DNA of 36,778 nt from Rhodoferax sp. (GTDB lineage: Bacteria; Pseudomonadota; Gammaproteobacteria; Burkholderiales; Burkholderiaceae_C), in assembly GCA_018063505.1 (NCBI GenBank), contig JAGPBF010000015.1:1-36778 (forward strand), in the 5' to 3' direction. Positions 2,801 to 21,865 of this stretch are shown piece by piece. Position 1 is the stretch's first letter, and each line of letters begins with the position of its first letter. The notes under the pieces were generated by a model, which was not told the origin of the DNA, made no database searches, and worked only from the letters and a program-made list of their open reading frames with translations. Position numbers and translations under genes: made by a program.

Positions 2801-4087
2801 TCAAGGCGCCCCGAACATCGCGTTGGGCAGCGCCAGGCTGATCGCCGGTACGTAGGTCACTATCACCAGGAACACCAGCAACACCGTCAACCACGGCAAG
2901 GCCGCCTTGGTGACCTGTACCAGGTTCATGCCGGTCACCCCGCTGGTGACGAACAGGTTCAGACCAACCGGCGGTGTCACCATGCCGATCTCCATGTTCA
3001 CGACCATGATGATGCCCAGGTGGATCGGGTCGATGCCCAGTTTCATCGCGATCGGGAACAGGATCGGCGCCAGTATCAGGATGATGCCGGTCGGCTCCAT
3101 GAAGTTGCCGGCGATCAGCAGAATGATGTTGACCACCAGCAGGAACATCCACGGCGACATGCCCACCGCCATGATCTGCTCGGCGATCGCCTGCGGAATG
3201 CGTTCGGTCGTGAGCACATGGGCAAACAACAAGGCGTTGGCCACGATGAACATGATCATCACCGTGGTCTTGGCCGACTCGAGGAACACCTCGGGAAGCT
3301 GCTTGAACGTCAGGTCGCGATAGACGAACACCGCCACGGCCAGCGCATAGACCGCGGACACGGCGGCCGCTTCGGTGGGAGTGAACACGCCGCCGTAGAT
3401 GCCGCCCATGATGATGACCAGCAGCGCCAGTCCCCACATGGAGTCGCGCAGCGCACGCAGCACTTCCTTGCCACTGGCCTTGGGAGGTGGCGTGATCTGC
3501 AGCTTGCCGGCACGCCACCAGACCGCAATCATCAGCATCAGGCCCAGCATGATGCCGGGCACGACGCCGGCCATGAACATGCGGCCGACCGACACCTCGG
3601 TGACAGCCGCATACACCACCATGACGATCGACGGCGGAATCAGGATGCCCAGCGTGCCGGCATTGCAGATCACGCCGGCGGCGAATTCCTTGGTGTAGCC
3701 GTTCCTGACCATGCCGGTGATGACGATCGAGCCAATCGCCACCACGGTGGCCGGGCTCGACCCCGACACAGCGGCAAACAGCATGCAGGCCAGGATCGAC
3801 GCAATCGCCAGACCGCCACGCAGATGTCCGACAGCAGCAATCGCGAAACGCACCATGCGCTTGGCCACGCCGCCAGTGGACATCAGGTTGCCGGCCAGCA
3901 CGAAGAACGGGATCGCCATCAGCGTGTAGTGTTCGCTGGTCTCGAACAGCTTGATCGACATCGATGCGATCGAATCCTGCGAGAAAAACGCGATGGTCAG
4001 CAAACTGGCCAGGCCCAGGCTGATCGCCACCGGAATGCCGATGGCCATGAACAGGAACAGGCAGACGAACAGGACAGCGGTATTCAT
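2801..4087 (-). CDS. dctM: TRAP transporter large membrane subunit DctM
   Basis: A 428-residue, almost entirely hydrophobic protein with about a dozen membrane segments, the usual length of the large TRAP permease. Family hallmarks include the start NTAVLFVCLFLFMAIGIPVAISL, the segment GGLAIASILACMLFAAVSGSSPATVVAIGSI, and the C-terminal TPPVGLNLFVTSGV. It forms the sodium-coupled C4-dicarboxylate-type channel with DctQ and is fed by the periplasmic DctP. Its ATG overlaps the dctQ stop as ATGA (4084-4087), so the two are co-translated. The substrate is inferred from DctP similarity only. Confidence 0.95.
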   Translation of the reverse strand: MNTAVLFVCLFLFMAIGIPVAISLGLASLLTIAFFSQDSIASMSIKLFETSEHYTLMAIPFFVLAGNLMSTGGVAKRMVRFAIAAVGHLRGGLAIASILACMLFAAVSGSSPATVVAIGSIVITGMVRNGYTKEFAAGVICNAGTLGILIPPSIVMVVYAAVTEVSVGRMFMAGVVPGIMLGLMLMIAVWWRAGKLQITPPPKASGKEVLRALRDSMWGLALLVIIMGGIYGGVFTPTEAAAVSAVYALAVAVFVYRDLTFKQLPEVFLESAKTTVMIMFIVANALLFAHVLTTERIPQAIAEQIMAVGMSPWMFLLVVNIILLIAGNFMEPTGIILILAPILFPIAMKLGIDPIHLGIIMVVNMEIGMVTPPVGLNLFVTSGVTGMNLVQVTKAALPWLTVLLVFLVIVTYVPAISLALPNAMFGAP

Positions 4088-4611
4088 TGTTCGGTCTCCT
4101 GCTGCTGGAGCTTCATGGCATCGGCGGCCTCGTCGGCCAGATGCAGACTGTCCGTCTTGCCGGTGGCCAGGTTATAGAGAATCTGGAAGAAGCGAAGGCC
4201 TACCAGCGCATACCCGATCGGCATGATGAGCAATACTTTCCAGCGCTCGACTGGCAGGTCGTCGAGCTCGACGCCTACTTCGTGCATCTTGCTGACGTAG
4301 ATCGTCGAGCCATAAAGAACGAAACCGACGTACACCAGACACAACGCCACTGCCAGCATCGACACCAGGCGTCGGTTGGGTGCAGACAGCAGATTGACCA
4401 GCGCATCGACACCGATATGCGATCCGACGCGTACACCGTACGAAATCCCGACAAAGATCATGACCGCGAAAAACACGCCGGTCATCTCCAGGCTCCATGA
4501 GAACCCGGTGTTGAACACATACCGCCGGACCACCTGGATGAATGCGAGCGCCGTCATGGCGAACAGCATCAGCGAAATGATCCACTCTTCAACGTGGTCC
4601 AGTATCTTCAT
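4084..4611 (-). CDS. dctQ: TRAP transporter small membrane subunit DctQ
   Basis: A 175-residue protein with four membrane segments, matching DctQ size and layout (MKILDHVEEWIISLMLFAMTALAFIQVVRRYVF at the N-terminus; RVGSHIGVDALVNLL in the middle). The open frame extends 20 codons further upstream, but the ATG at 4611 is preferred: AAGGA lies just before it and the extension runs into the terminator hairpin. It partners DctM. The dctP-dctQ gap contains an intrinsic terminator, so dctQM should be made in lower amount than the binding protein. Confidence 0.92.
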   Translation of the reverse strand: MKILDHVEEWIISLMLFAMTALAFIQVVRRYVFNTGFSWSLEMTGVFFAVMIFVGISYGVRVGSHIGVDALVNLLSAPNRRLVSMLAVALCLVYVGFVLYGSTIYVSKMHEVGVELDDLPVERWKVLLIMPIGYALVGLRFFQILYNLATGKTDSLHLADEAADAMKLQQQETEQ

Positions 4612-4625
4612 GATGTCCTTCCCAA

Positions 4626-4679
4626 GAAAAACCCCGGACAGGCCGGGGTGGATGATCGGCTGACGCCGCAACAGGCGTC
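4626..4679 (-). terminator. Intrinsic terminator/attenuator between dctP and dctQ
   Basis: Read on the minus strand after the dctP stop, a GACGCC/GGCGTC hairpin (4662-4679) is followed by a strong ACCCCGG-CCTGT-CCGGGGT hairpin (4631-4649) and then an immediate T-run, continuing TTTTTCTT. This is a textbook rho-independent terminator lying inside an operon. Partial read-through would explain the usual excess of TRAP binding protein over membrane subunits. Confidence 0.8.
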
Positions 4680-4688
4680 GCTGCCGAC

Positions 4689-5738
<1,050 letters not shown>

Positions 5739-6554: not shown

Positions 6555-7148
6555 CTATGTCGCCTTCGGCACGCCGGGCGTCTCGAAGGCGTTGCGGCGG
6601 GTTCGCATTGCCAGGCCGATGCGGTCCAGCTCTTCATCGCTCAGCAGCCGCTGGGCCATCGGCAACAGTTCGGACTCTTCTCGTGCGATGTGTTGCTCGT
6701 ACAGGCTGACGAAGCCTGTCACCTCGTCGCCAGCAACACTAGCGCCATGGCCACCTGACACCTGCTCCAGTTGGCGGCGCAAGTGGCTCCAGCGAAGCTC
6801 GAGTTCCCGATGTTCGAGCGTCAGCGATGCCGTCAACGCACGCAGACAAACCGCGTCGGAACCAGCCATCGACTCGATCAAGGCCGGAAAGAGATCGACC
6901 TCCTCGTCAGCATGGTGGTGGCGCGCAGAGGTGTCGAAATAACGCATCACGGCCACTGCGGCCTGCTGCGCCTGCAGATCGGCACCGTGACTGCGCAGAT
7001 GCACAACAAGCCGGTTCAAGGTCTCGCACTGGCTTTGCACCCGGCCATGGCATGCCGCCAGCATTTCCAGTGGCACTTCGAAGCCGACCGCCGGTGCATG
7101 GTGCCCCGGCAGGCCAAGGTGATGGTTCTTTGTCATCGGGTCAGGCAT
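6555..7148 (-). CDS. Hemerythrin-domain protein
   Basis: A 197-residue soluble protein with a four-helix HHE/hemerythrin fold. Candidate di-iron ligands are His34 (ACHGR), His77-79 with Glu82/83 (HHHADEEVDLFPAL), His113 (LEHRELE) and His153 with Glu157/158 (YEQHIAREESELLP). The ATG at 7148 has GGAG at the right distance; the open frame runs 41 codons further up, through the intergenic region and past the operator, so the longer start is rejected. Related proteins bind oxygen or NO or repair iron-sulfur clusters, but it lacks the N-terminal ScdA-type domain of YtfE. It is transcribed divergently from the oxidase operon with an NsrR-type operator between them, which favours a role in nitrosative stress. 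Function is inferred from context. Confidence 0.85.
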   Translation of the reverse strand: MPDPMTKNHHLGLPGHHAPAVGFEVPLEMLAACHGRVQSQCETLNRLVVHLRSHGADLQAQQAAVAVMRYFDTSARHHHADEEVDLFPALIESMAGSDAVCLRALTASLTLEHRELELRWSHLRRQLEQVSGGHGASVAGDEVTGFVSLYEQHIAREESELLPMAQRLLSDEELDRIGLAMRTRRNAFETPGVPKAT

Positions 7149-7251
7149 GGAATTCTCCGCTTTGGCACACGTGGGATGTTGTAGCGATGGTGGCGCCGGG
7201 CCATCACCTGCGTTGGCATCAGGGACATTACCCGTCCTCGAACTTGTCGTT

Positions 7252-7274
7252 AAGATGCACAGAAAATGCATTTT
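7252..7274. promoter_or_regulatory. NsrR-type operator (predicted NO-responsive)
   Basis: The dyad AAGATGCA-N7-TGCATTTT has the arm sequence and the seven-base spacing of the published NsrR consensus (AAGATGYA-N7-TRCATCTT): 8 of 8 in the left arm and 7 of 8 in the right. The spacer matches less well. It lies 78 bases before the oxidase start and 103 before the hemerythrin start. A possible promoter for the oxidase operon (TTAAGA at 7250, TATAAG at 7274) is overlapped by the operator, which would allow repression. The nsrR gene itself is not in the window. Confidence 0.7.
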
Positions 7275-7352
7275 ATAAGAAATATCGAGGTCGCTGTGAT
7301 TCGCTTGGCCCTGGACTGTCGATCGTCGTGCCGAACCGGCATCTGAAACACC

Positions 7353-8999
7353 ATGAACACCGTCGCCATCCTGTTGTCTGCATTCGTGCTGTCTTTCGTC
7401 GCGCTGCTGGTCTTCATCTGGTCACAGCGAACGGGTCTGTTTGATCGCAGCAGCAAAGGTGCCGAAGTCATCTTCGCGCCGGACGAGATCGGCCGCATCG
7501 AGGAACCCGCAGCAACTTCCGCAGGGCGCAGGGCGCTGCAGCGCACGGTCGATGCCGCGCAAGGTGGCGCCACCGGCCACAACGTCAACGACGAACTGCG
7601 CGAGCGGGCACGCGCCGACGCCTCCACCGCGCCGGTCGTGTTTTTCTTCTTCTGCTGCGCCATCGTCTGGTTGCTGGTGGCCTCGGCCGCCGGGTTGACG
7701 GCGTCGATCAAGCTGCACGAACCCGACTGGCTGGTGCAGCAGGCCTGGCTGACCTTCGGGCGCATCCGCACCATCCACCTCAACGCGGTGGCCTACGGCT
7801 GGGCGCCGATGGCCGGTCTGGGCGTGGCGCTGTTCATCATTCCGCGCCTGCTCAAGACACCGCTGATCGGCGCACGATACGCATTCTTTGGCGGCGTGTT
7901 GTGGAACGCAGCACTGATCGCCGGGCTGGGCAGCATCGGCGCGGGCATCAGCGACGGACTCGAATGGCTGGAGATTCCCTGGCAAATCGGCACGCTGTTT
8001 GCGCTCGGTGGCGCCCTGATCGCACTGCCGCTGGTCTTCACGCTGGTCAACCGCCGCGTCGAACACCTGTACGTCTCGGTCTGGTATATGGCCTGCGCGT
8101 TGTTCTGGATACCCGTGCTGTTCATCGTCGCCAAGATGCCGGGCGTGCACAGCGGCATCGAACAGGCGACGATGAACTGGTGGTTCGGCCACAATGTTCT
8201 GGGCCTGTTCTACACACCGCTGGCGCTGGCCTCGGTCTACTACTTTCTGCCCAAGATCATCGGTCGGCCGATCCAGTCGTACAACCTGTCATTGCTCGGC
8301 TTCTGGGGGCTGGCATTTTTCTATGGCCAGGTCGGTGGCCACCACCTGATCGGCGGGCCTGTGCCGCAATGGATGATCACCTTGTCGATCGTGCAGAGCA
8401 TGATGATGATCATTCCGGTGGCCGCTTTCACGGTCAATCAGTACCAGACCTTGCAAGGCCACCTGGGCGCGCTGCGCGATTCACCAACGCTGCGTTTCAT
8501 TGGCGTGGGCGGCCTGATGTACACGGCCAGTTCCTTCCAGGGTTCGATCGAAGCGCTGCGCAGCGTCAACGTCGTCACCCACTTCACGCACTACACGGTG
8601 GCCCATGCACACCTGGGGCTCTACGGATTCGTCACCTTCGTCTTCTTCGGCGCCATGTACTTCACCACGCCGCGCATCACCGCTCGGGAGTGGCCGTATC
8701 CGTCGATGATCAGTGCGCACTTCTGGCTGGTCAGCACAGGATTTGCGATCTACTTCGTCAGCCTGACCATCGGCGGCTGGCTGCAAGGCCAGGCCATGCT
8801 CGAGGCGGCCAGGCCATTCATGGATTCGGTGGCCGTCACCTTGCCTTACCTCAAGGGCCGCAGCATCGGTGGCGCGCTGATGGTGCTGGGCCACCTGGTG
8901 TTCGCCCTGCACTTCGTGCTGCTGGTGACCAACTTCGGGCCGCAACGCGACAAGCCTGCATTGTTCCGGCACTTGTTCGGCCGGGAGGTGGTGTCATGA
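7353..8999 (+). CDS. ccoN: CcoS-like/CcoN fusion: cbb3-type haem-copper oxidase subunit I variant
   Basis: A 548-residue catalytic subunit, about 70 residues longer than usual CcoN. Residues 1-45 look like the assembly protein CcoS: one membrane helix, then WSQRTGLFD and GAEVIFAPDE. A polar linker leads to the CcoN core from about 95. Ligands are visible: His142 and His420 for low-spin haem b, His418 for haem b3, and His280, His330 and His331 for CuB. Tyr324, six residues before the His pair, matches the cross-linked Tyr of C-family oxidases. The spacing between CuB and haem-b3 ligands (50 and 87 residues) equals that in Pseudomonas stutzeri CcoN. The conserved Glu of the FEGP motif is Gln here (SSFQGSI, Gln396). 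The stop overlaps ccoO as ATGA. Tyr324 argues for oxygen reduction; NO reduction is an alternative given the operator upstream. Confidence 0.88.
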   Translation: MNTVAILLSAFVLSFVALLVFIWSQRTGLFDRSSKGAEVIFAPDEIGRIEEPAATSAGRRALQRTVDAAQGGATGHNVNDELRERARADASTAPVVFFFFCCAIVWLLVASAAGLTASIKLHEPDWLVQQAWLTFGRIRTIHLNAVAYGWAPMAGLGVALFIIPRLLKTPLIGARYAFFGGVLWNAALIAGLGSIGAGISDGLEWLEIPWQIGTLFALGGALIALPLVFTLVNRRVEHLYVSVWYMACALFWIPVLFIVAKMPGVHSGIEQATMNWWFGHNVLGLFYTPLALASVYYFLPKIIGRPIQSYNLSLLGFWGLAFFYGQVGGHHLIGGPVPQWMITLSIVQSMMMIIPVAAFTVNQYQTLQGHLGALRDSPTLRFIGVGGLMYTASSFQGSIEALRSVNVVTHFTHYTVAHAHLGLYGFVTFVFFGAMYFTTPRITAREWPYPSMISAHFWLVSTGFAIYFVSLTIGGWLQGQAMLEAARPFMDSVAVTLPYLKGRSIGGALMVLGHLVFALHFVLLVTNFGPQRDKPALFRHLFGREVVS

Positions 9000-9607
9000 A
9001 AAGCGAGATCAAGCTGGTCTCCGGCGCAATGGTCATGCTGGCCCTGTCGACCAGCGTGCTGGTGACCATACCGTACCTGCAGGTGCGCGACATCGAGCCC
9101 TCGCCCGGACTCAAACCCTACACCAGCGCGGAGCTGCGTGGGCGCGAGGTCTACATCGCCAATGGTTGCGTCTATTGCCACTCGCAGCAACCGCGGCCAA
9201 AGGAAATGGCCCCTGATTTCGAGCGCGGCTGGGGCCGTGCCACAGTGGCCGGGGATTATGCGTACGACAATCCGCACCTGCTGGGCACCAGCCGCACCGG
9301 GCCCGATCTGATGAACATAGGCGCACGCCAGCCCAGTGAAGACTGGCAGCTGGGCCACCTGTACGCGCCGCGCGCCTATGTGCCCGGCAGCATCATGCCG
9401 GCGTTCCCGTTTCTGTTCGAACGCAAAACCAAAGCCGACAAGGAGGACCATGTCGTCAAGCTTCCGTCCAACGCCGCGCCAGCGGGGCAGGTGGTGGTGG
9501 CGCGGCCGCAGGCGCTCGATCTGGCCAGATACTTGTTGTCGCTGAACCGCAGTTATCCGATCGTGGCAGCGCCGCCCGCGCCGGCCGCTTCAGGAGCCAA
9601 ACCATGA
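8996..9607 (+). CDS. ccoO: cbb3-type oxidase monohaem cytochrome c subunit
   Basis: A 203-residue membrane-anchored cytochrome c. One N-terminal helix (residues 7-26) is followed by the haem site CVYCHSQQPRP (Cys58-His62), then AGDYAYDNPHLLGTSRTGPDL and the axial Met134 in GSIMPAFPF, all CcoO family marks. It passes electrons from the soluble or CcoP-like cytochrome to subunit I. The start ATG overlaps the ccoN stop and the stop overlaps the next cytochrome gene, both as ATGA. The Pro/Ala-rich C-terminal tail is not conserved. Confidence 0.93.
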   Translation: MKSEIKLVSGAMVMLALSTSVLVTIPYLQVRDIEPSPGLKPYTSAELRGREVYIANGCVYCHSQQPRPKEMAPDFERGWGRATVAGDYAYDNPHLLGTSRTGPDLMNIGARQPSEDWQLGHLYAPRAYVPGSIMPAFPFLFERKTKADKEDHVVKLPSNAAPAGQVVVARPQALDLARYLLSLNRSYPIVAAPPAPAASGAKP

Positions 9608-10200
9608 GCGAGCCTGAAATCCGCAGCCAGCAGCAACGCGAGAACCCCGAACCCGAGGAAGGCAAAAACCCGATGCCGTGGTTCGTCGTTGCGCTCACCG
9701 CTGTGTTGTTCGTCTTCGGCATGGTCTACATTGCCCGCACCACGCTGAACCAGCCCTCGACCTGGGGCGACGGCCGCACCGTGGCCGACCTGCAAGGCCC
9801 GGCACCCGCGGCCGTGGGCGCCACGGTGGATGGCGCTGCCGTCTTCAGCACCCGTTGTGCAGCCTGCCATCAGACCACGGGCTTGGGCCTTGCGGGCGTG
9901 TTCCCGCCGCTGGCCGGTTCGGAATGGGCAATCGGCAAGGAACACACCTTGGCGGCGATCGTGCTGCACGGCATCAACGGCAAGCTCACCGTCAAGGGCA
10001 ATACCTACACTGGTGCGATGCCGGCCTTCAAGGACCAGTTGCCGGACGCCGAGATTGCTGCCGTATTGACGCACATTCGCAGCACCTGGGGCAACCAGGC
10101 CGACGCGGTCACGGCCGACACCATCGGCCAGGTGCGCCAGGACACCGCAGCCCAGGGCGGGCCGTACGATGGCGATGCCGGCCTGGCCGCGCTGAAGTAG
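9604..10200 (+). CDS. Membrane-anchored monohaem cytochrome c (CcoP position)
   Basis: A 198-residue protein with an acidic N-terminal stretch (residues 1-23), one membrane helix (about 25-45) and a single class I cytochrome c domain: CAACH at residues 85-89 and axial Met139 in TGAMPAF. Between them the FPPLAGSEW segment resembles domains of cytochrome c oxidase accessory cytochromes. It sits where dihaem ccoP is found in ordinary cbb3 operons, but has only one haem motif and no second domain. It is therefore probably the electron entry subunit of this reduced oxidase. Its ATG overlaps the ccoO stop as ATGA. Confidence 0.88.
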   Translation: MSEPEIRSQQQRENPEPEEGKNPMPWFVVALTAVLFVFGMVYIARTTLNQPSTWGDGRTVADLQGPAPAAVGATVDGAAVFSTRCAACHQTTGLGLAGVFPPLAGSEWAIGKEHTLAAIVLHGINGKLTVKGNTYTGAMPAFKDQLPDAEIAAVLTHIRSTWGNQADAVTADTIGQVRQDTAAQGGPYDGDAGLAALK

Positions 10201-10213
10201 CCGCGCCAGCGAC

Positions 10214-10882
10214 ATGCGCACAGCACGACAATCCGATACGCTTTCGCGCTGGTGCAGCGCGCTGCTGTGCCTGGCAATGGGGACGACGTTCGCCTGGGCC
10301 GCATGGCGCCAAACCAGCGGCTTCGAAGTCTGGACCTTCGAAGGCCGCCGCCAGCTGCAGGCAGCCTCCGGCCAATTGCAGGCACCTGTGGTGCCTCTGC
10401 ACCTTGACGACGGCAGCGTGGCACTGGCACCCTGGCATACGCCCGGCGCGACGCCGGCAGCCTACCTGGTCGATTTCATATATACGCGCTGCCCGAGCGT
10501 GTGCCGGGTACTGGGCAACGAATACCAGCAGATGCAGCGCCAGTTGGTCGAGCGTTCGCGCCAAGACCCAGCCGGCCAGCGCATTGCGCTCTTGTCGGTG
10601 TCCTTCGATACCGAGCACGACCAGGTACAACAATTGCAGGAAGCCGCCATGCGACTGGGGGCACTGCCTGCACATTGGCGCTTCGCCGTGCCGGCCAGCA
10701 AGACCGACGCGCAATCATTGCTGCGCGCGCTCGGCGTAGTAGCCATTGCCGACGGCGCAGGTGGTTTCGTGCACAACGGTGACATCCATTTGCTGGACCG
10801 CGATGGTCGACTGCGTGCGATGTTCGGTTTTGACGACTGGCCGCGTGCCATGGCTGCTGCCAAAGCGCTTGCTGAACCATGA
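10214..10882 (+). CDS. SCO1/SenC family copper chaperone
   Basis: A 222-residue thioredoxin-fold protein with one N-terminal membrane anchor (about residues 13-31). The copper site is CPSVC (93-97) plus a distal histidine, probably His187 in GGFVHNGD. SCO proteins deliver copper to haem-copper oxidase sites or reduce their cysteines in the periplasm. Its place directly after the oxidase genes, with a 13-base gap, points to CuB assembly of this enzyme. Its stop overlaps the next gene as ATGA. Confidence 0.9.
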   Translation: MRTARQSDTLSRWCSALLCLAMGTTFAWAAWRQTSGFEVWTFEGRRQLQAASGQLQAPVVPLHLDDGSVALAPWHTPGATPAAYLVDFIYTRCPSVCRVLGNEYQQMQRQLVERSRQDPAGQRIALLSVSFDTEHDQVQQLQEAAMRLGALPAHWRFAVPASKTDAQSLLRALGVVAIADGAGGFVHNGDIHLLDRDGRLRAMFGFDDWPRAMAAAKALAEP

Positions 10883-11580
10883 GGCGGCGCGGCCATTGTT
10901 TGCCAGAAACAGGCTGGGCACTGCTGGCCGCGTTGCCATTGCTGCTGCTGTGGCCCGCGCTGCGCCAGACAGTGGAGAGCCGCATGTCGCTGCACATGCT
11001 GCTGGAGTTTCCACTGCTGTTCGCCGCCGGCTGGGCGCTGCAGCGCCTGGGGCCGCACGCGGCCTGGGTGCAATGGCTCGACTGGCGCGGCTGGACCGGC
11101 GCCACCTTGACCAGCCTGGTGGCTGCCAGCTGGATGTTGCCCTCGCTGCTCGATCTCTCCTTGATGTCACCGTCTTTGGCCACGGCGAAATACGTCAGCT
11201 GGTGGCTGGCGGGATGGCTGCTGGCTGACAGCTGGCGCCGGCTGGACCCCGAAGTGCTGCTGTTCCTGGTCGGCAACATCGCCTGGATGACGGCCACCGC
11301 CGGCATGTTGTACCTGGACACGCCCCAGCAGCTGTGCGTGAACTACCTGCAAGACGACCAGCGCCATGCCGGCATCGGCTTGGTGTTGCTGGCAATCGGC
11401 CTGGGAGCGACGGCGATTCGCCGCGCCATGCAGCAGGCACCACGGCGCAGGCGCCACTGGCCCTCGGCGGCCGCAAGGCAGGCGGCCACAGTCGGGCTGA
11501 CGCGAACGCCGGCGCCGGACCCGAAATCAAGCGTCGCAATGCACAATGGACCAATACTGCCTACAGAGACCGCGCCATGA
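10879..11580 (+). CDS. Integral membrane protein, possible oxidase assembly factor (CtaG/DUF1404-like)
   Basis: A 233-residue protein with about five or six membrane segments and a basic, Ala/Arg-rich C-terminal tail from about residue 185. The segment MSLHMLLEFPLLFAAGW, with a His-Met pair in a membrane helix, recalls copper-handling membrane proteins of the CtaG/DUF1404 type, but the match is only by eye. It overlaps both neighbours by ATGA, lying between the SCO gene and the metallophosphoesterase. A role in copper insertion or oxidase assembly is inferred from context. The tail could be read differently if the true stop differs, but the overlap supports the frame. Confidence 0.7.
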   Translation: MRRRGHCLPETGWALLAALPLLLLWPALRQTVESRMSLHMLLEFPLLFAAGWALQRLGPHAAWVQWLDWRGWTGATLTSLVAASWMLPSLLDLSLMSPSLATAKYVSWWLAGWLLADSWRRLDPEVLLFLVGNIAWMTATAGMLYLDTPQQLCVNYLQDDQRHAGIGLVLLAIGLGATAIRRAMQQAPRRRRHWPSAAARQAATVGLTRTPAPDPKSSVAMHNGPILPTETAP

Positions 11581-12344
11581 AAATTGCCCTGATGTCCGAT
11601 CTGCACCTCTCTGTCCAGCCGATGGTCGCGCCGCACATCGATGCGGATGTGCTGGTACTCGCCGGCGACCTGCACCGCCCGGCCGGCGCCATCGCATGGG
11701 CGCGGCAGTTCGGTGCCACACCCACATTGTTCGTCGCCGGCAACCACGAGTTCTACGGCGCAGACCTGATCGGCACCATGCACGCATTGCGCACTCAGGC
11801 CGAAGGCAGTTCGGTACGTGTACTCGAGCAAGATGTCTGGTACCACCAGGGTGTGCGATTCCTGGGCTGTACGTTGTGGTCGGACTACCGTTTGTTCGAC
11901 TCCGCAGAACAGCGCGAGCAAGGGCTGCAACAGGCCGCCGCGATGGTGCGGGACTTCTCGCGCATCCGGGTGGCGGCGGACTTCGACGACCTGTTCACGC
12001 CCGCCGTGGCACAGCTGCTGTTCGACCGTTCGGTGGCCTGGCTGGAGCGCCAGCTCGCCGTGCCTCACCAAGGACCCACAGTGGTCATCACCCACTTTGC
12101 ACCGTCGCGCGGCAGCATCGCCACCCGGTTTGTCGGCTCGCCGCTGAACGCCTGCTTTGTCTCGGACCTGCAGGCACAGATCGAACGCTGGCAGCCCGCC
12201 TTGTGGCTGCATGGCCATGTGCACGACAGTTGCGACTACCAGATCGGCCGCACGCGGGTCGTCGCCAATCCGCGCGGTTATGCGCCCAAGGGCGTAGTCG
12301 AAAACCCGCGCTTCGATCCATCGCTGGTGATCGAGCTGGCCTGA
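11577..12344 (+). CDS. Calcineurin-like metallophosphoesterase
   Basis: A 255-residue cytoplasmic phosphoesterase. All five metal-binding blocks are present: SDLHLS near the N-terminus, LAGDLH, GNHEFYG, ITHFAPS and GHVHDS. No signal peptide is seen. The open frame begins at 11334, but the ATG at 11577 starts exactly at the first metal block and overlaps the preceding stop as ATGA. The substrate is unknown. It is co-transcribed with the oxidase genes, although no link of this family with oxidase function is evident. Confidence 0.88.
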   Translation: MKIALMSDLHLSVQPMVAPHIDADVLVLAGDLHRPAGAIAWARQFGATPTLFVAGNHEFYGADLIGTMHALRTQAEGSSVRVLEQDVWYHQGVRFLGCTLWSDYRLFDSAEQREQGLQQAAAMVRDFSRIRVAADFDDLFTPAVAQLLFDRSVAWLERQLAVPHQGPTVVITHFAPSRGSIATRFVGSPLNACFVSDLQAQIERWQPALWLHGHVHDSCDYQIGRTRVVANPRGYAPKGVVENPRFDPSLVIELA

Positions 12345-12372
12345 CCCCTGCGCCAACACCTGGGAGATGCTT

Positions 12373-12807
12373 ATGCATACGCCGACATCCCGGAACGGGA
12401 CATTGGGCGACGCCATCGTCGCGCATATGGCCGAAGCCCTGATCTATGCCGACCGCGACGGCCGGATCGAACGCTGGAACGCTGCCGCCGCGCAGGTGTT
12501 CGGCTTCAGTGCCAGCGAGGCGATCGGGCAAAGCCTGGACTTGATGATCCCCGAGCCGTTGCGGGCCGCGCACTGGCGCGGCTTTGATGCAGCGATGAAG
12601 GGCGGCACACTGCGACTGAACGGTCGCCCGACATTGACGCGTGGCCTGCACAAGTCGGGGCGCAAGCTGTACATCGAGATGAGCTTCGCGCTGGTGCGCG
12701 ACGATGCCAACCAGGTACTGGGTTCGGTGGCCGTGGCGCGTGATGTGACCGAGCGCACCTTGCGCGAAAAGGCACTGCGCGCTGCCGGCCCGACCGCAGG
12801 ACCATGA
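12373..12807 (+). CDS. Stand-alone PAS-domain protein
   Basis: A 144-residue protein made of one PAS domain with its PAC-type C-terminal part (ADRDGRIERWNAAAAQVFGFS ... GSVAVARDVTERTLREKAL). It has no output domain. GGGAG at 12362-12366 lies at the right distance from the ATG at 12373; the ATG at 12367 directly abuts that site and is rejected. It follows the metallophosphoesterase by 28 bases in the same direction and may close the oxidase operon. PAS domains bind haem, flavin or small ligands, so a redox- or NO-sensing partner role is possible but speculative. Confidence 0.82.
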   Translation: MHTPTSRNGTLGDAIVAHMAEALIYADRDGRIERWNAAAAQVFGFSASEAIGQSLDLMIPEPLRAAHWRGFDAAMKGGTLRLNGRPTLTRGLHKSGRKLYIEMSFALVRDDANQVLGSVAVARDVTERTLREKALRAAGPTAGP

Positions 12808-19765: not shown

Positions 19766-21865
19766 ATGACAACCAAGGCCCGTGCCACGCCGGCTGTCCG
19801 TCCGATGGCGTTCCTCGACCGCGATCACAGCATCCTGGCGTTCAATGAGCGCGTGCTCGACTGGGCCCACCGCCCGGATGTGCCGCTGCTCGAGCGGCTG
19901 CGTTATCTGTGTATCGTCTCGTCCAACCTCGACGAGTTTTTCGAGGTGCGCATGGCCGACCATCTGCAGGCCTGGCAAAGCGACATACGCAAGGGCGTCT
20001 ATACGGCGCAGTCCTTCGAGGCGCTGGCGCTGGCCGCGCACACCCTGGTCGATCGGCAATACGCGCTGTACAACGATGCTTTCATGCCAGCCTTCGGCCG
20101 CGAAGGGATCGAAATCATCGGCTTCAGCGACCGCACGCCCGCGCAGACGCGCTGGGTCCACCAGCACTTCGAACGCGAAGTGCGACCCTTGTTGATACCG
20201 GTAGGCCTTGATCCGTCACATCCGTTTCCGCAGGTCGCCAACAAGACCCTGAACTTCATCGTGCGCCTGGGAGGCAAGGACGCGTTCGGGCGCGAGAACG
20301 ACATCGCCATCGTCAAAATTCCACGGGTGCTGCCTCGGCTGATCCGCATGCCCGACAAAGTGTCCGGCGGCAAGGCGGCTTTCGTGTCGCTGTCCAGCGT
20401 CATCCGGGCCCATCTGCCCAGCTTGTTCCCAGGCCGCGATGTGGGCCAGTTTTCGCAGTTTCGCGTGACCCGGCATTCGGACCTGGCGGTGGACGAAGAC
20501 GATGTGCGCAACCTGCGCACGGCAATGCGGCTGGGCCTTCAGCAGCGCCACTTCGGCCAGGCCGTGCGGCTCGAAGTGGCGGCCGGATGTTCCGACTACC
20601 TGGCCGATTTCCTGCTGAGCCAGTTCAATCTGCCATCGCAGGCCTTGTATCGGGTACACGGTCCGGTCAATCTGGTGCGCCTGCAGCAACTGATCAACCT
20701 GGTCGACGCACCACGCCTGTTGTTCGTACCCTATGCCGCAACCGATACCGCGCAGGCGCTGGGCAACCAGTCGGTGTTCGAACGGCTGAAGCTGGGCGAC
20801 ATTCTGTTGCACCACCCCTACGAGAGCTTCAGCCTGGTGCTGGAATTCCTGCGCGAGGCGGTCGACGACCCGCAGGTGCTGGCGATCAAGCAAACCATCT
20901 ACCGCACCGGCCCCGATCCACTGCTGATGAATCTGTTGTGCGAAGCGGTTCGCCGTGGCAAGGAAGTTACGGCCGTGGTGGAGCTCAAGGCCCGCTTCGA
21001 TGAAGAAGCGAACATCAACTGGGCCGAACGCCTGGAGTCGGTCGGCGCGCAGGTGGTCTATGGCGTAGTCGGACTCAAGACCCACGCCAAGATGCTGCTG
21101 ATCACCCGGCGCGAAGGTCACAAGCTGGTGCGCTACGCGCATCTGTCGACCGGCAACTACAACGTGCGCACGGCCGGCCTGTACACCGACATCGGTCATC
21201 TGAGTGCCGACCCGCTGCTGACCTCGGACATCGAGCAAGTGTTCCTGCACCTGGCCAGCCAGAGCCGGCTGCCGCGGCTGCACCATGTGTGGGTGGCACC
21301 GTTTCACCTGCAGCGCCGATTCATCGCCTGCATCGAACAGGTGGGCGAAGCGGCCGCACGCGGCCAGGACGCACGCATCGTGCTCAAGATGAATGCATTG
21401 ACCGACGAGACGCTGATGACGGCCCTGATGCGCGCCGGACAACAAGGCGCACGCATCGACCTGATTGTGCGCGGGGCCTGCATGTTGCCGCCGGAGGTGC
21501 CCGGCCAGACCGACAACATCCGGGTTCGCTCCATCATCGGCCGCTTTCTGGAGCATTCCCGGGTGTTTTATTTCCGGATGGGCGACACGGAGCAGCTGTT
21601 CCTGTCCAGCGCGGACTGGATGAACCGCAACATGTTGCGCCGCATCGAAATCGCCTGGCCCATCACAGACCCGACACTGCGCCAGCGCATCATCGATGAA
21701 TGCCTGGTTGCCAGCCTGCACGATCGGCGCGACGCGTGGCTGTTGTCGGCCGACGGTCACTACCAGCGCGTGCACACGCACGCGAAAGACGACGGCCCCG
21801 GCATGCAGGATGCACTGATGGCACGGTATGCAGCGCGTTCACGCAAGGAGATTGGATGGACCTGA
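19766..21865 (+). CDS. ppk1: Polyphosphate kinase 1
   Basis: A 699-residue PPK1, the usual length. It polymerizes the gamma-phosphate of ATP into polyphosphate. The N-terminal block is FLDRDHSILAFNERVLDWA...SNLDEFFEVRM; the two conserved histidines are His440 (KTHAKMLLI) and His459 (YAHLSTGNYN), equal to E. coli His435 and His454. The start follows the sequence AGGCGA and lies downstream of a Pho box. Its end overlaps sixA by ten bases. No exopolyphosphatase gene is present here. Confidence 0.97.
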   Translation: MTTKARATPAVRPMAFLDRDHSILAFNERVLDWAHRPDVPLLERLRYLCIVSSNLDEFFEVRMADHLQAWQSDIRKGVYTAQSFEALALAAHTLVDRQYALYNDAFMPAFGREGIEIIGFSDRTPAQTRWVHQHFEREVRPLLIPVGLDPSHPFPQVANKTLNFIVRLGGKDAFGRENDIAIVKIPRVLPRLIRMPDKVSGGKAAFVSLSSVIRAHLPSLFPGRDVGQFSQFRVTRHSDLAVDEDDVRNLRTAMRLGLQQRHFGQAVRLEVAAGCSDYLADFLLSQFNLPSQALYRVHGPVNLVRLQQLINLVDAPRLLFVPYAATDTAQALGNQSVFERLKLGDILLHHPYESFSLVLEFLREAVDDPQVLAIKQTIYRTGPDPLLMNLLCEAVRRGKEVTAVVELKARFDEEANINWAERLESVGAQVVYGVVGLKTHAKMLLITRREGHKLVRYAHLSTGNYNVRTAGLYTDIGHLSADPLLTSDIEQVFLHLASQSRLPRLHHVWVAPFHLQRRFIACIEQVGEAAARGQDARIVLKMNALTDETLMTALMRAGQQGARIDLIVRGACMLPPEVPGQTDNIRVRSIIGRFLEHSRVFYFRMGDTEQLFLSSADWMNRNMLRRIEIAWPITDPTLRQRIIDECLVASLHDRRDAWLLSADGHYQRVHTHAKDDGPGMQDALMARYAARSRKEIGWT

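Follow-up and report, generated by a model that had tools for sequence, protein, structure and literature searches.

A predicted NsrR-controlled cassette for a variant C-family terminal oxidase in Rhodoferax sp. and its relatives

A 36,778-nucleotide contig of Rhodoferax sp. (GenBank assembly GCA_018063505.1, contig JAGPBF010000015.1; termed the window, and contig C116 of this 4.56-Mb assembly of 370 contigs, 90.7% complete) harbors a hemerythrin-domain gene and, divergent from it, an operon for a variant cbb3-like terminal oxidase, with a predicted NsrR-type operator between them. Five of the operon genes, encoding an unusual subunit I (CcoN*), CcoO, a second cytochrome c (CytC), a SCO1/SenC protein (SCO), and a membrane protein (MEM), recur together in relatives and are referred to as the cassette. 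The interpretation that we favor, by a modest degree, is that the cassette encodes an NsrR-repressed O2 reductase for use under nitric oxide (NO) stress, with NO removal as a side activity.

In the proposed mechanism, NsrR, an Rrf2-family repressor with cluster cysteines, would occupy the operator at 7252-7274 when NO is absent, and would keep the hemerythrin gene and the oxidase operon repressed. Damage to the NsrR cluster by NO would then release the two promoters. The operon product would be a variant C-family (cbb3-like) oxidase, in which electrons are expected to pass from cytochrome c through the monoheme CcoO and the second monoheme cytochrome c to heme b and on to the heme b3-CuB center, with SCO and MEM probably aiding the insertion of CuB. 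The most likely job of this enzyme would be the reduction of O2 while NO inhibits the ordinary oxidases.

The operator, the regulator and the operon in Rhodoferax sp.

The first-pass annotation of the window had proposed an NsrR-type operator between the divergent genes, and this proposal held. The annotated pattern, AAGATGCA-N7-TGCATTTT, has its sole mismatch-free match in the assembly at 7252-7274, where the sequence agrees with the NsrR consensus gATGyAT-N5-ATrCATc given in a passage of PMC1274295. For the symmetric pattern AANATGCA-N7-TGCATNTT, the entire assembly contains three exact matches, namely the window operator, C264:13106 upstream of a DUF2249 gene (with two NirDL-like siroheme decarboxylase genes and a cytochrome c gene nearby), and C325:4958 upstream of nnrS, DUF2249, and ferredoxin genes. 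When up to two mismatches are allowed, this pattern occurs at 14 places in the assembly, compared to 2 for a reversed control.

The absence of nsrR from the genome had been named as grounds for abandoning NsrR control, and the start of an nsrR gene was found. Contig C325 terminates 87 bases past its operator, and its final 35 bases encode MRLSEYTDYSL, which corresponds to the first 11 codons of nsrR (MRLAEYTDYTL in relatives). The remainder of the gene was not found in the assembly, in which a PF02082 search returned three Rrf2 proteins and no full-length NsrR. The protein on C17 was rejected as NsrR because it is IscR by model, and those on C215 and C229 because the three-cysteine pattern is absent by eye; the latter (G000:C229:25-396, L015) is an Rrf2-family regulator without the cluster cysteines, located at a contig end. 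The assembly of just 11 nsrR codons, with no full gene, could mean that nsrR has been lost, that the operator is a relic, and that the genes are constitutive. However, the nsrR start is cut at a contig end adjoining a perfect operator, which in an assembly this fragmented and incomplete points to an assembly gap, and we consider the loss of the regulator very improbable.

At the nsrR start of Rhodoferax sp. (C325; L010 4958-5021), the operator is accompanied by a weaker NsrR-like site at a distance of 41 bp, and pairs of NsrR-like sites with starts 41 bp apart were also observed upstream of fdxA or ccoN in the relatives L063 and L069. Such pairs, spaced by about four helical turns, are possible dual operators.

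The gene set proposed for the window (hemerythrin, ccoN variant, ccoO, cytochrome c, SCO, membrane protein, phosphoesterase, and PAS protein) was recovered in full by the Pfam and open reading frame (ORF) check, MEM being without a Pfam match. The locus comprises one minus-strand gene, the palindrome, and seven plus-strand genes, as follows.

6555..7136, minus strand: hemerythrin-domain (HHE) gene, 193 aa (PF01814, E 8.5e-16)
7252..7274, no strand: predicted NsrR-type operator between the divergent genes (pattern match to the published consensus)
7353..8999, plus strand: ccoN*, C-family oxidase subunit I, 548 aa, with a weakly CcoS-like N-terminus (PF00115, alignment to 3mk7_A, tree)
8996..9607, plus strand: ccoO, monoheme cytochrome c subunit (PF02433, E 1.1e-37)
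9604..10200, plus strand: cytC, monoheme cytochrome c with an N-terminal hydrophobic stretch, replacing the diheme CcoP (PF13442)
10214..10882, plus strand: SCO1/SenC protein (PF02630, CxxxC motif)
10879..11580, plus strand: MEM, predicted helical membrane protein, weakly DUF1404/Caa3_CtaG-like (family models, AlphaFold2)
11577..12344, plus strand: metallophosphoesterase, overlapping MEM by 4 bases; peripheral, unconserved (PF00149)
12373..12807, plus strand: PAS-domain protein; peripheral, unconserved (PF08448)

The hemerythrin start that agrees with relatives is near 7136, and the operator is therefore intergenic. From ccoN* through the phosphoesterase gene, neighboring genes overlap by 4 bases or are spaced by 13 bases, and thus likely form a single transcript.

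Conservation and NsrR linkage of the cassette

To follow the same gene order in other genomes, as the first-pass annotation had suggested, we used a GTDB scan and analyzed 80 loci, the best 80 of at least 557 relatives, from betaproteobacterial genera plus Steroidobacter and Peristeroidobacter. Genera with cultured members among the carriers are Quisquiliibacterium, Zeimonas, Rhizobacter, Denitromonas, and Duganella. All five core genes are present in 78 of the 80 loci; ccoO and cytC were found in every locus and SCO and MEM in 78, one of the two misses (L077) stopping at a contig end and the other (L094) showing neither gene. In two Steroidobacter-type loci (L085 and L087), SCO and MEM are on the strand opposite to the rest of the cassette. 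Within the order, 300 genomes were searched, and 14 besides Rhodoferax sp. were found to carry full-length CcoN* relatives (55-93% identity); all 14 have ccoN*-ccoO-cytC-SCO-MEM in this order. Below these were two intermediates at 48-49%, followed by other C-family proteins at 39% or less; the intermediates (L060 and L061), a ccoN-ccoO-cytC sister group, had no SCO or MEM match. When genomes from the whole phylum were sampled, 5 of 398 were matched by the profile at 1e-130, including the Rhodoferax sp. genome itself and one intermediate, all from the same order as Rhodoferax sp. The order-wide searches scored only the top candidates per genome (up to 4 CcoN, 10 MEM, and 12 NsrR proteins), and absences in them are held with lower confidence than presences.

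The operon had been annotated as extending to the phosphoesterase and PAS genes. The conservation supports its first five genes as a unit and not the last two, which were rejected as conserved members with matches to the window proteins in just 4 and 7 of the 80 loci, respectively. Hemerythrin relatives are present in 6 of the loci, in four of which (L065, L067, L069, and L074) they lie behind nsrR on the same strand. No description of the cassette was found in the literature searched, preprints, supplements, and most subscription papers being outside that search.

Linked nsrR genes, defined by at least 40% identity and a position within about 8 kb of the cassette, were detected in 30 of the 80 loci, and nnrS and fdxA in 16 and 12, respectively. 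In 22 of the 30 linked loci, nsrR is divergent from ccoN and lies upstream of it at a distance of no more than about 3 kb. One or more of the nnrS, DUF2249, and ferredoxin (fdxA) genes stand between the two in 17 of the linked loci, and nnrS does so in 12. The most complete arrangement, exemplified by L074, reads HHE-nsrR, operator, nnrS-DUF2249-fdxA-ccoN*, and in L065 and L067 a DUF2249 gene is located behind the HHE gene. In Rhodoferax sp., parts of this layout are spread over three contigs, with one exact operator on each, from which we infer that one ancestral cluster may have been broken up, each piece having kept or regained an NsrR site. Candidate NsrR boxes with up to four mismatches were found in the 350 bp upstream of nsrR in 20 of the 30 linked loci, compared to 3.8% of 3,000 random segments from the same loci, and with up to three mismatches in 11 of the 30, compared to 1.5% of 3,000. 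An NsrR profile, built partly from cassette-linked NsrR proteins, matched 10 of the 14 cassette genomes of the order (Rhodoferax sp., with its nsrR cut off, left out) versus 114 of 285 cassette-free genomes (Fisher p 0.026). The cysteines C91, C99, and C105 are kept in all 27 NsrR proteins of relatives that were aligned.

Several observations weigh against NsrR control as a property of the cassette at large. No nsrR is present in the stretch examined in 50 of the 80 loci, and only 4 of these 50 have a box with up to three mismatches in the 350 bp upstream of ccoN; all four are Cupriavidus (random rate, 0.64% of 2,500 segments). Even where nsrR is linked, 10 of the 30 loci have no box before nsrR with fewer than five mismatches, and the closest named relative, Quisquiliibacterium (93%), shows just a three-mismatch box, before nsrR. 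The NsrR and RirA models from NCBIfam score the L065 regulator at 124.9 and 124.8 bits, respectively, both under the cut-offs, and the regulator is called NsrR rather than RirA because of the operator and the neighbor genes. With nsrR missing from 50 loci and only four of these carrying a box, NsrR control looks lineage-dependent. Conservation of the operator among relatives, another point raised in the first-pass annotation, is accordingly partial: boxes precede many of the linked nsrR genes and the four Cupriavidus ccoN genes, and the other 46 unlinked loci show none with up to three mismatches in that 350-bp stretch. For the Rhodoferax sp. operon itself, NsrR control is likely as judged from the operator, the nsrR start in the assembly, and the recurrent linkage, with the unlinked loci on the other side.

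The same data bear on a reading of the cassette as a set of microaerobic oxidase genes comparable to other cbb3 isoforms, with NO control incidental or confined to some lineages. This reading is consistent with the lack of linked nsrR in most loci and with three of the 14 genomes of the order (G250, G107, and G063) for which no C-family match other than the variant is listed at 1e-30. However, nsrR and nnrS linkage recurs in several genera, Rhodoferax sp. has three exact operators, and FNR-type boxes (up to one mismatch, within 600 bp upstream of ccoN) are present in just 5 of the 80 loci, FNR/DNR control having been set aside. We regard this reading as improbable.

The operator consensus and the nnrS and nsrR neighbors are shared with the NsrR regulons of beta- and gammaproteobacteria described in PMC1274295. 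In contrast, the regulon members named in the part of that article considered here (hmp, hcp, dnrN, nnrS, norB, and nirK) include no terminal oxidase. A precedent to which the cassette can be likened is CcoN4 of Pseudomonas aeruginosa, which a passage of PMC10790758 presents as a cbb3 isoform whose induction by a respiratory poison involves a linked regulator and a palindrome. The poison and regulator are cyanide and MpaR there and would be NO and NsrR here, and CcoN4 is an orphan subunit beside ccoQ4, whereas the cassette includes ccoO, cytochrome, SCO, and MEM genes of its own.

The variant oxidase subunits

Phylogenetic analysis placed CcoN* in its own group, with 26 variants on one branch in 96% of bootstrap trees (support 94/95, just under the star of the program) and 12 canonical CcoN rows on a separate branch (support 100/100). 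The tree contains 47 chosen rows, is rooted only for drawing, and has long branches for a qNOR row and L033. CcoN* is well supported as a distinct variant of the C-family oxidases. The window protein scores 258.4 bits against the ccoN model, for which the cut-off is 583.15.

Residues H142, H280, H330, H331, H418, H420, and Y324 are invariant in all 81 CcoN* proteins (the window and 80 relatives). By their place in the alignment to 3mk7_A, from which the numbering of Glu323 and Tyr251 is also taken, we assume H280, H330, and H331 to be the CuB ligands; Y324 aligns with Y251 of 3mk7_A. At position 396, which corresponds to E323 of 3mk7_A, Gln is present in 72 and Glu in 9 of the 81 proteins. The first 45 residues or so of CcoN* show a weak match to the ccoS model (9 of 15 members at 0.05, best E 1.2e-4; 16.4 bits for the window protein, cut-off 28.35). 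In the intermediate L060, a separate small gene that is CcoS-like by eye directly precedes ccoN, an arrangement that suggests a gene fusion as the origin of the variant N-terminus.

CcoO and CytC each contain one CxxCH motif in 80 of 80 relatives, and the complex would therefore carry two c hemes; canonical cbb3 carries three. The window CytC scores 52.4 bits against the TIGR00782 ccoP model (cut-off 179.95). No ccoP gene was seen in the window operon, for which no dedicated search was made, and no CcoQ was seen among window ORFs of at least 80 aa, a small ccoQ not having been searched for. In summary, the cassette is similar to cbb3 ccoNOQP in its subunit I family, heme and CuB histidines, helix-VII tyrosine, and monoheme CcoO, and differs from it in the separate tree group of subunit I and its score far under the ccoN cut-off, the weakly CcoS-like N-terminus, Gln in place of Glu323 in 72 of the 81 proteins, and the monoheme cytochrome in place of the diheme CcoP.

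Accessory proteins and the choice between O2 and NO

The last cassette gene provides a link to another group of heme-copper enzymes. MEM of the window has no Pfam match at 0.001; at 0.1, family models detect DUF1404 in 22 and Caa3_CtaG in 4 of 47 members, the window MEM itself being under the cut-off. Its AlphaFold2 model has a mean pLDDT of 88, and a fold search against the PDB gave no match (best E 0.62). At 1e-6, the MEM profile matched 20 of the 300 genomes of the order, of which 15 have the cassette (two of them also with a copy in an sNOR-type cluster), four have an sNOR-type cluster only, and one has a fragment; the 22 places in these genomes are 15 cassettes, 6 sNOR-type clusters, and one unassigned fragment. 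The fragment (G021:C314:120-338, L189) is at a contig end, with neither a cassette nor an sNOR-type cluster beside it in 1.8 kb. No MEM was found beside a canonical oxidase among the 300 genomes, exclusivity having been examined for MEM and not for SCO.

As characterized in part of PMC3475470, sNOR-type enzymes carry Asn in place of Tyr and show linkage to SenC/SCO1 and to a six-helix membrane protein, and the gene order of ammonia oxidizers quoted from PMC4940428 is norSY-senC-orf1. The sNOR label of the clusters described here is based on motif and gene order, no Nitrosomonas sequence having been compared. In L062 (12252-15553; the same region as L169), the cassette is followed in direct tandem by a COX2-like gene, a COX1-like gene with the motif FGHVFIN, SCO, and a second MEM. 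This COX1-like protein matched 6 of the 300 genomes at 1e-100, with SCO and MEM downstream in all six. A likeness of the window operon to the NO reductase (NOR) clusters of ammonia oxidizers had been noted in the first-pass annotation; it applies to SCO and MEM, which resemble the SCO gene and the last gene of sNOR-type clusters and stand in the same order, and fails for the catalytic subunit. Subunit I of the sNOR-type clusters is FGHVFIN-like, with Asn where oxidases have Tyr, whereas the cassette keeps Tyr, and the COX2-like partner found there has no counterpart among the cassette operon proteins (no COX2 match by Pfam). MEM may have a role in assembly.

These similarities also raise the possibility that the cassette is primarily an NOR, that is, a C-family enzyme that keeps its tyrosine and is matured by sNOR-type accessory proteins. 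The sharing of MEM with clusters of a proposed NO reductase fits NO reduction equally well and, together with the substitution of Gln for Glu323, which may alter the chemistry, counts against a primary role in O2 reduction. The tandem arrangement in L062, the NsrR linkage, and the reduction of NO reported for purified canonical cbb3 in a passage of PMC8780969 point in the same direction. However, oxidases have the active-site tyrosine and NORs replace it, according to the portion of PMC3475470 that deals with this residue; retention of Y324 in 81 of 81 proteins therefore favors O2 as the substrate. The stretch that reads HLWVEG in the qNOR of Rhodoferax sp. is HNVLGL or similar in the variants. 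The role of sNOR is itself disputed, a section of PMC6967387 proposing that it is a high-affinity oxidase adapted to conditions of low O2 and raised NO, the niche also suggested here for the cassette.

The complement of other enzymes was considered as well. A PF00115 search of the Rhodoferax sp. genome identified seven subunits I, which by motif we take to be CtaD, a caa3-like I-III fusion, the canonical CcoN, the variant, two eNOR-like proteins, and a qNOR. The canonical CcoN has the motif STFEG and is cut by a contig end. Besides the qNOR on C87, the genome contains two close paralogs (G000:C264:475-1770 and G000:C36:328-1620; L150 and L151) of a tyrosine-less heme-copper subunit I (FGHSSQQIN), eNOR-like by motif. 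The presence of other NORs in the genome also favors O2 reduction by the cassette. Of 65 genomes with the cassette (15, and 50 from the 80 loci), 45 have a c/qNOR-type match and 20 have none, a count that covers cassette genomes only and takes matches at 26-31% identity as c/qNOR-type without finer classification. The 20 genomes lacking such a match are compatible with the cassette as an NOR. In contrast, NirK over the cut-off is present in 20 of the 65 genomes, 19 of which also have a c/qNOR-type match, and a role as a stand-in for a missing NOR is for this reason unsupported in NirK carriers (NirS was not searched for). Another 19 of the 65 genomes have neither NirK over the cut-off nor a c/qNOR-type match and could rely on the cassette for NO removal. 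Taken together, we consider a primarily NO-reducing cassette unlikely, if still the foremost rival, and NO-tolerant O2 reduction appears to be the best single reading of the sequences.

A broader and doubtful extension is that these proteins represent a widespread, unnamed C-family group dedicated to NO, NsrR-linked in many lineages and marked by the CcoS-like stretch, Gln at Glu323, and MEM, which would be either a tyrosine-bearing NOR or an oxidase handling both O2 and NO.

Elsewhere, the window contains genes for a TRAP transporter (DctM, DctP; 2801-5714), a polyphosphate kinase (19766-21865), and a periplasmic binding protein (PF13433; 32719-34170).

NO poisons terminal oxidases, and it is not settled how denitrifiers and soil bacteria keep up O2 respiration when they produce or encounter NO. 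A five-gene oxidase cassette beside an NO-sensor gene, in genera with cultured members, makes this question testable, and the accessory gene common to sNOR-type clusters offers a way into the dispute over the substrate of sNOR, NO or O2. Should the cassette enzyme turn out to reduce NO, it would add to the sources of N2O, and marker-gene surveys may be scoring it as an ordinary oxidase.

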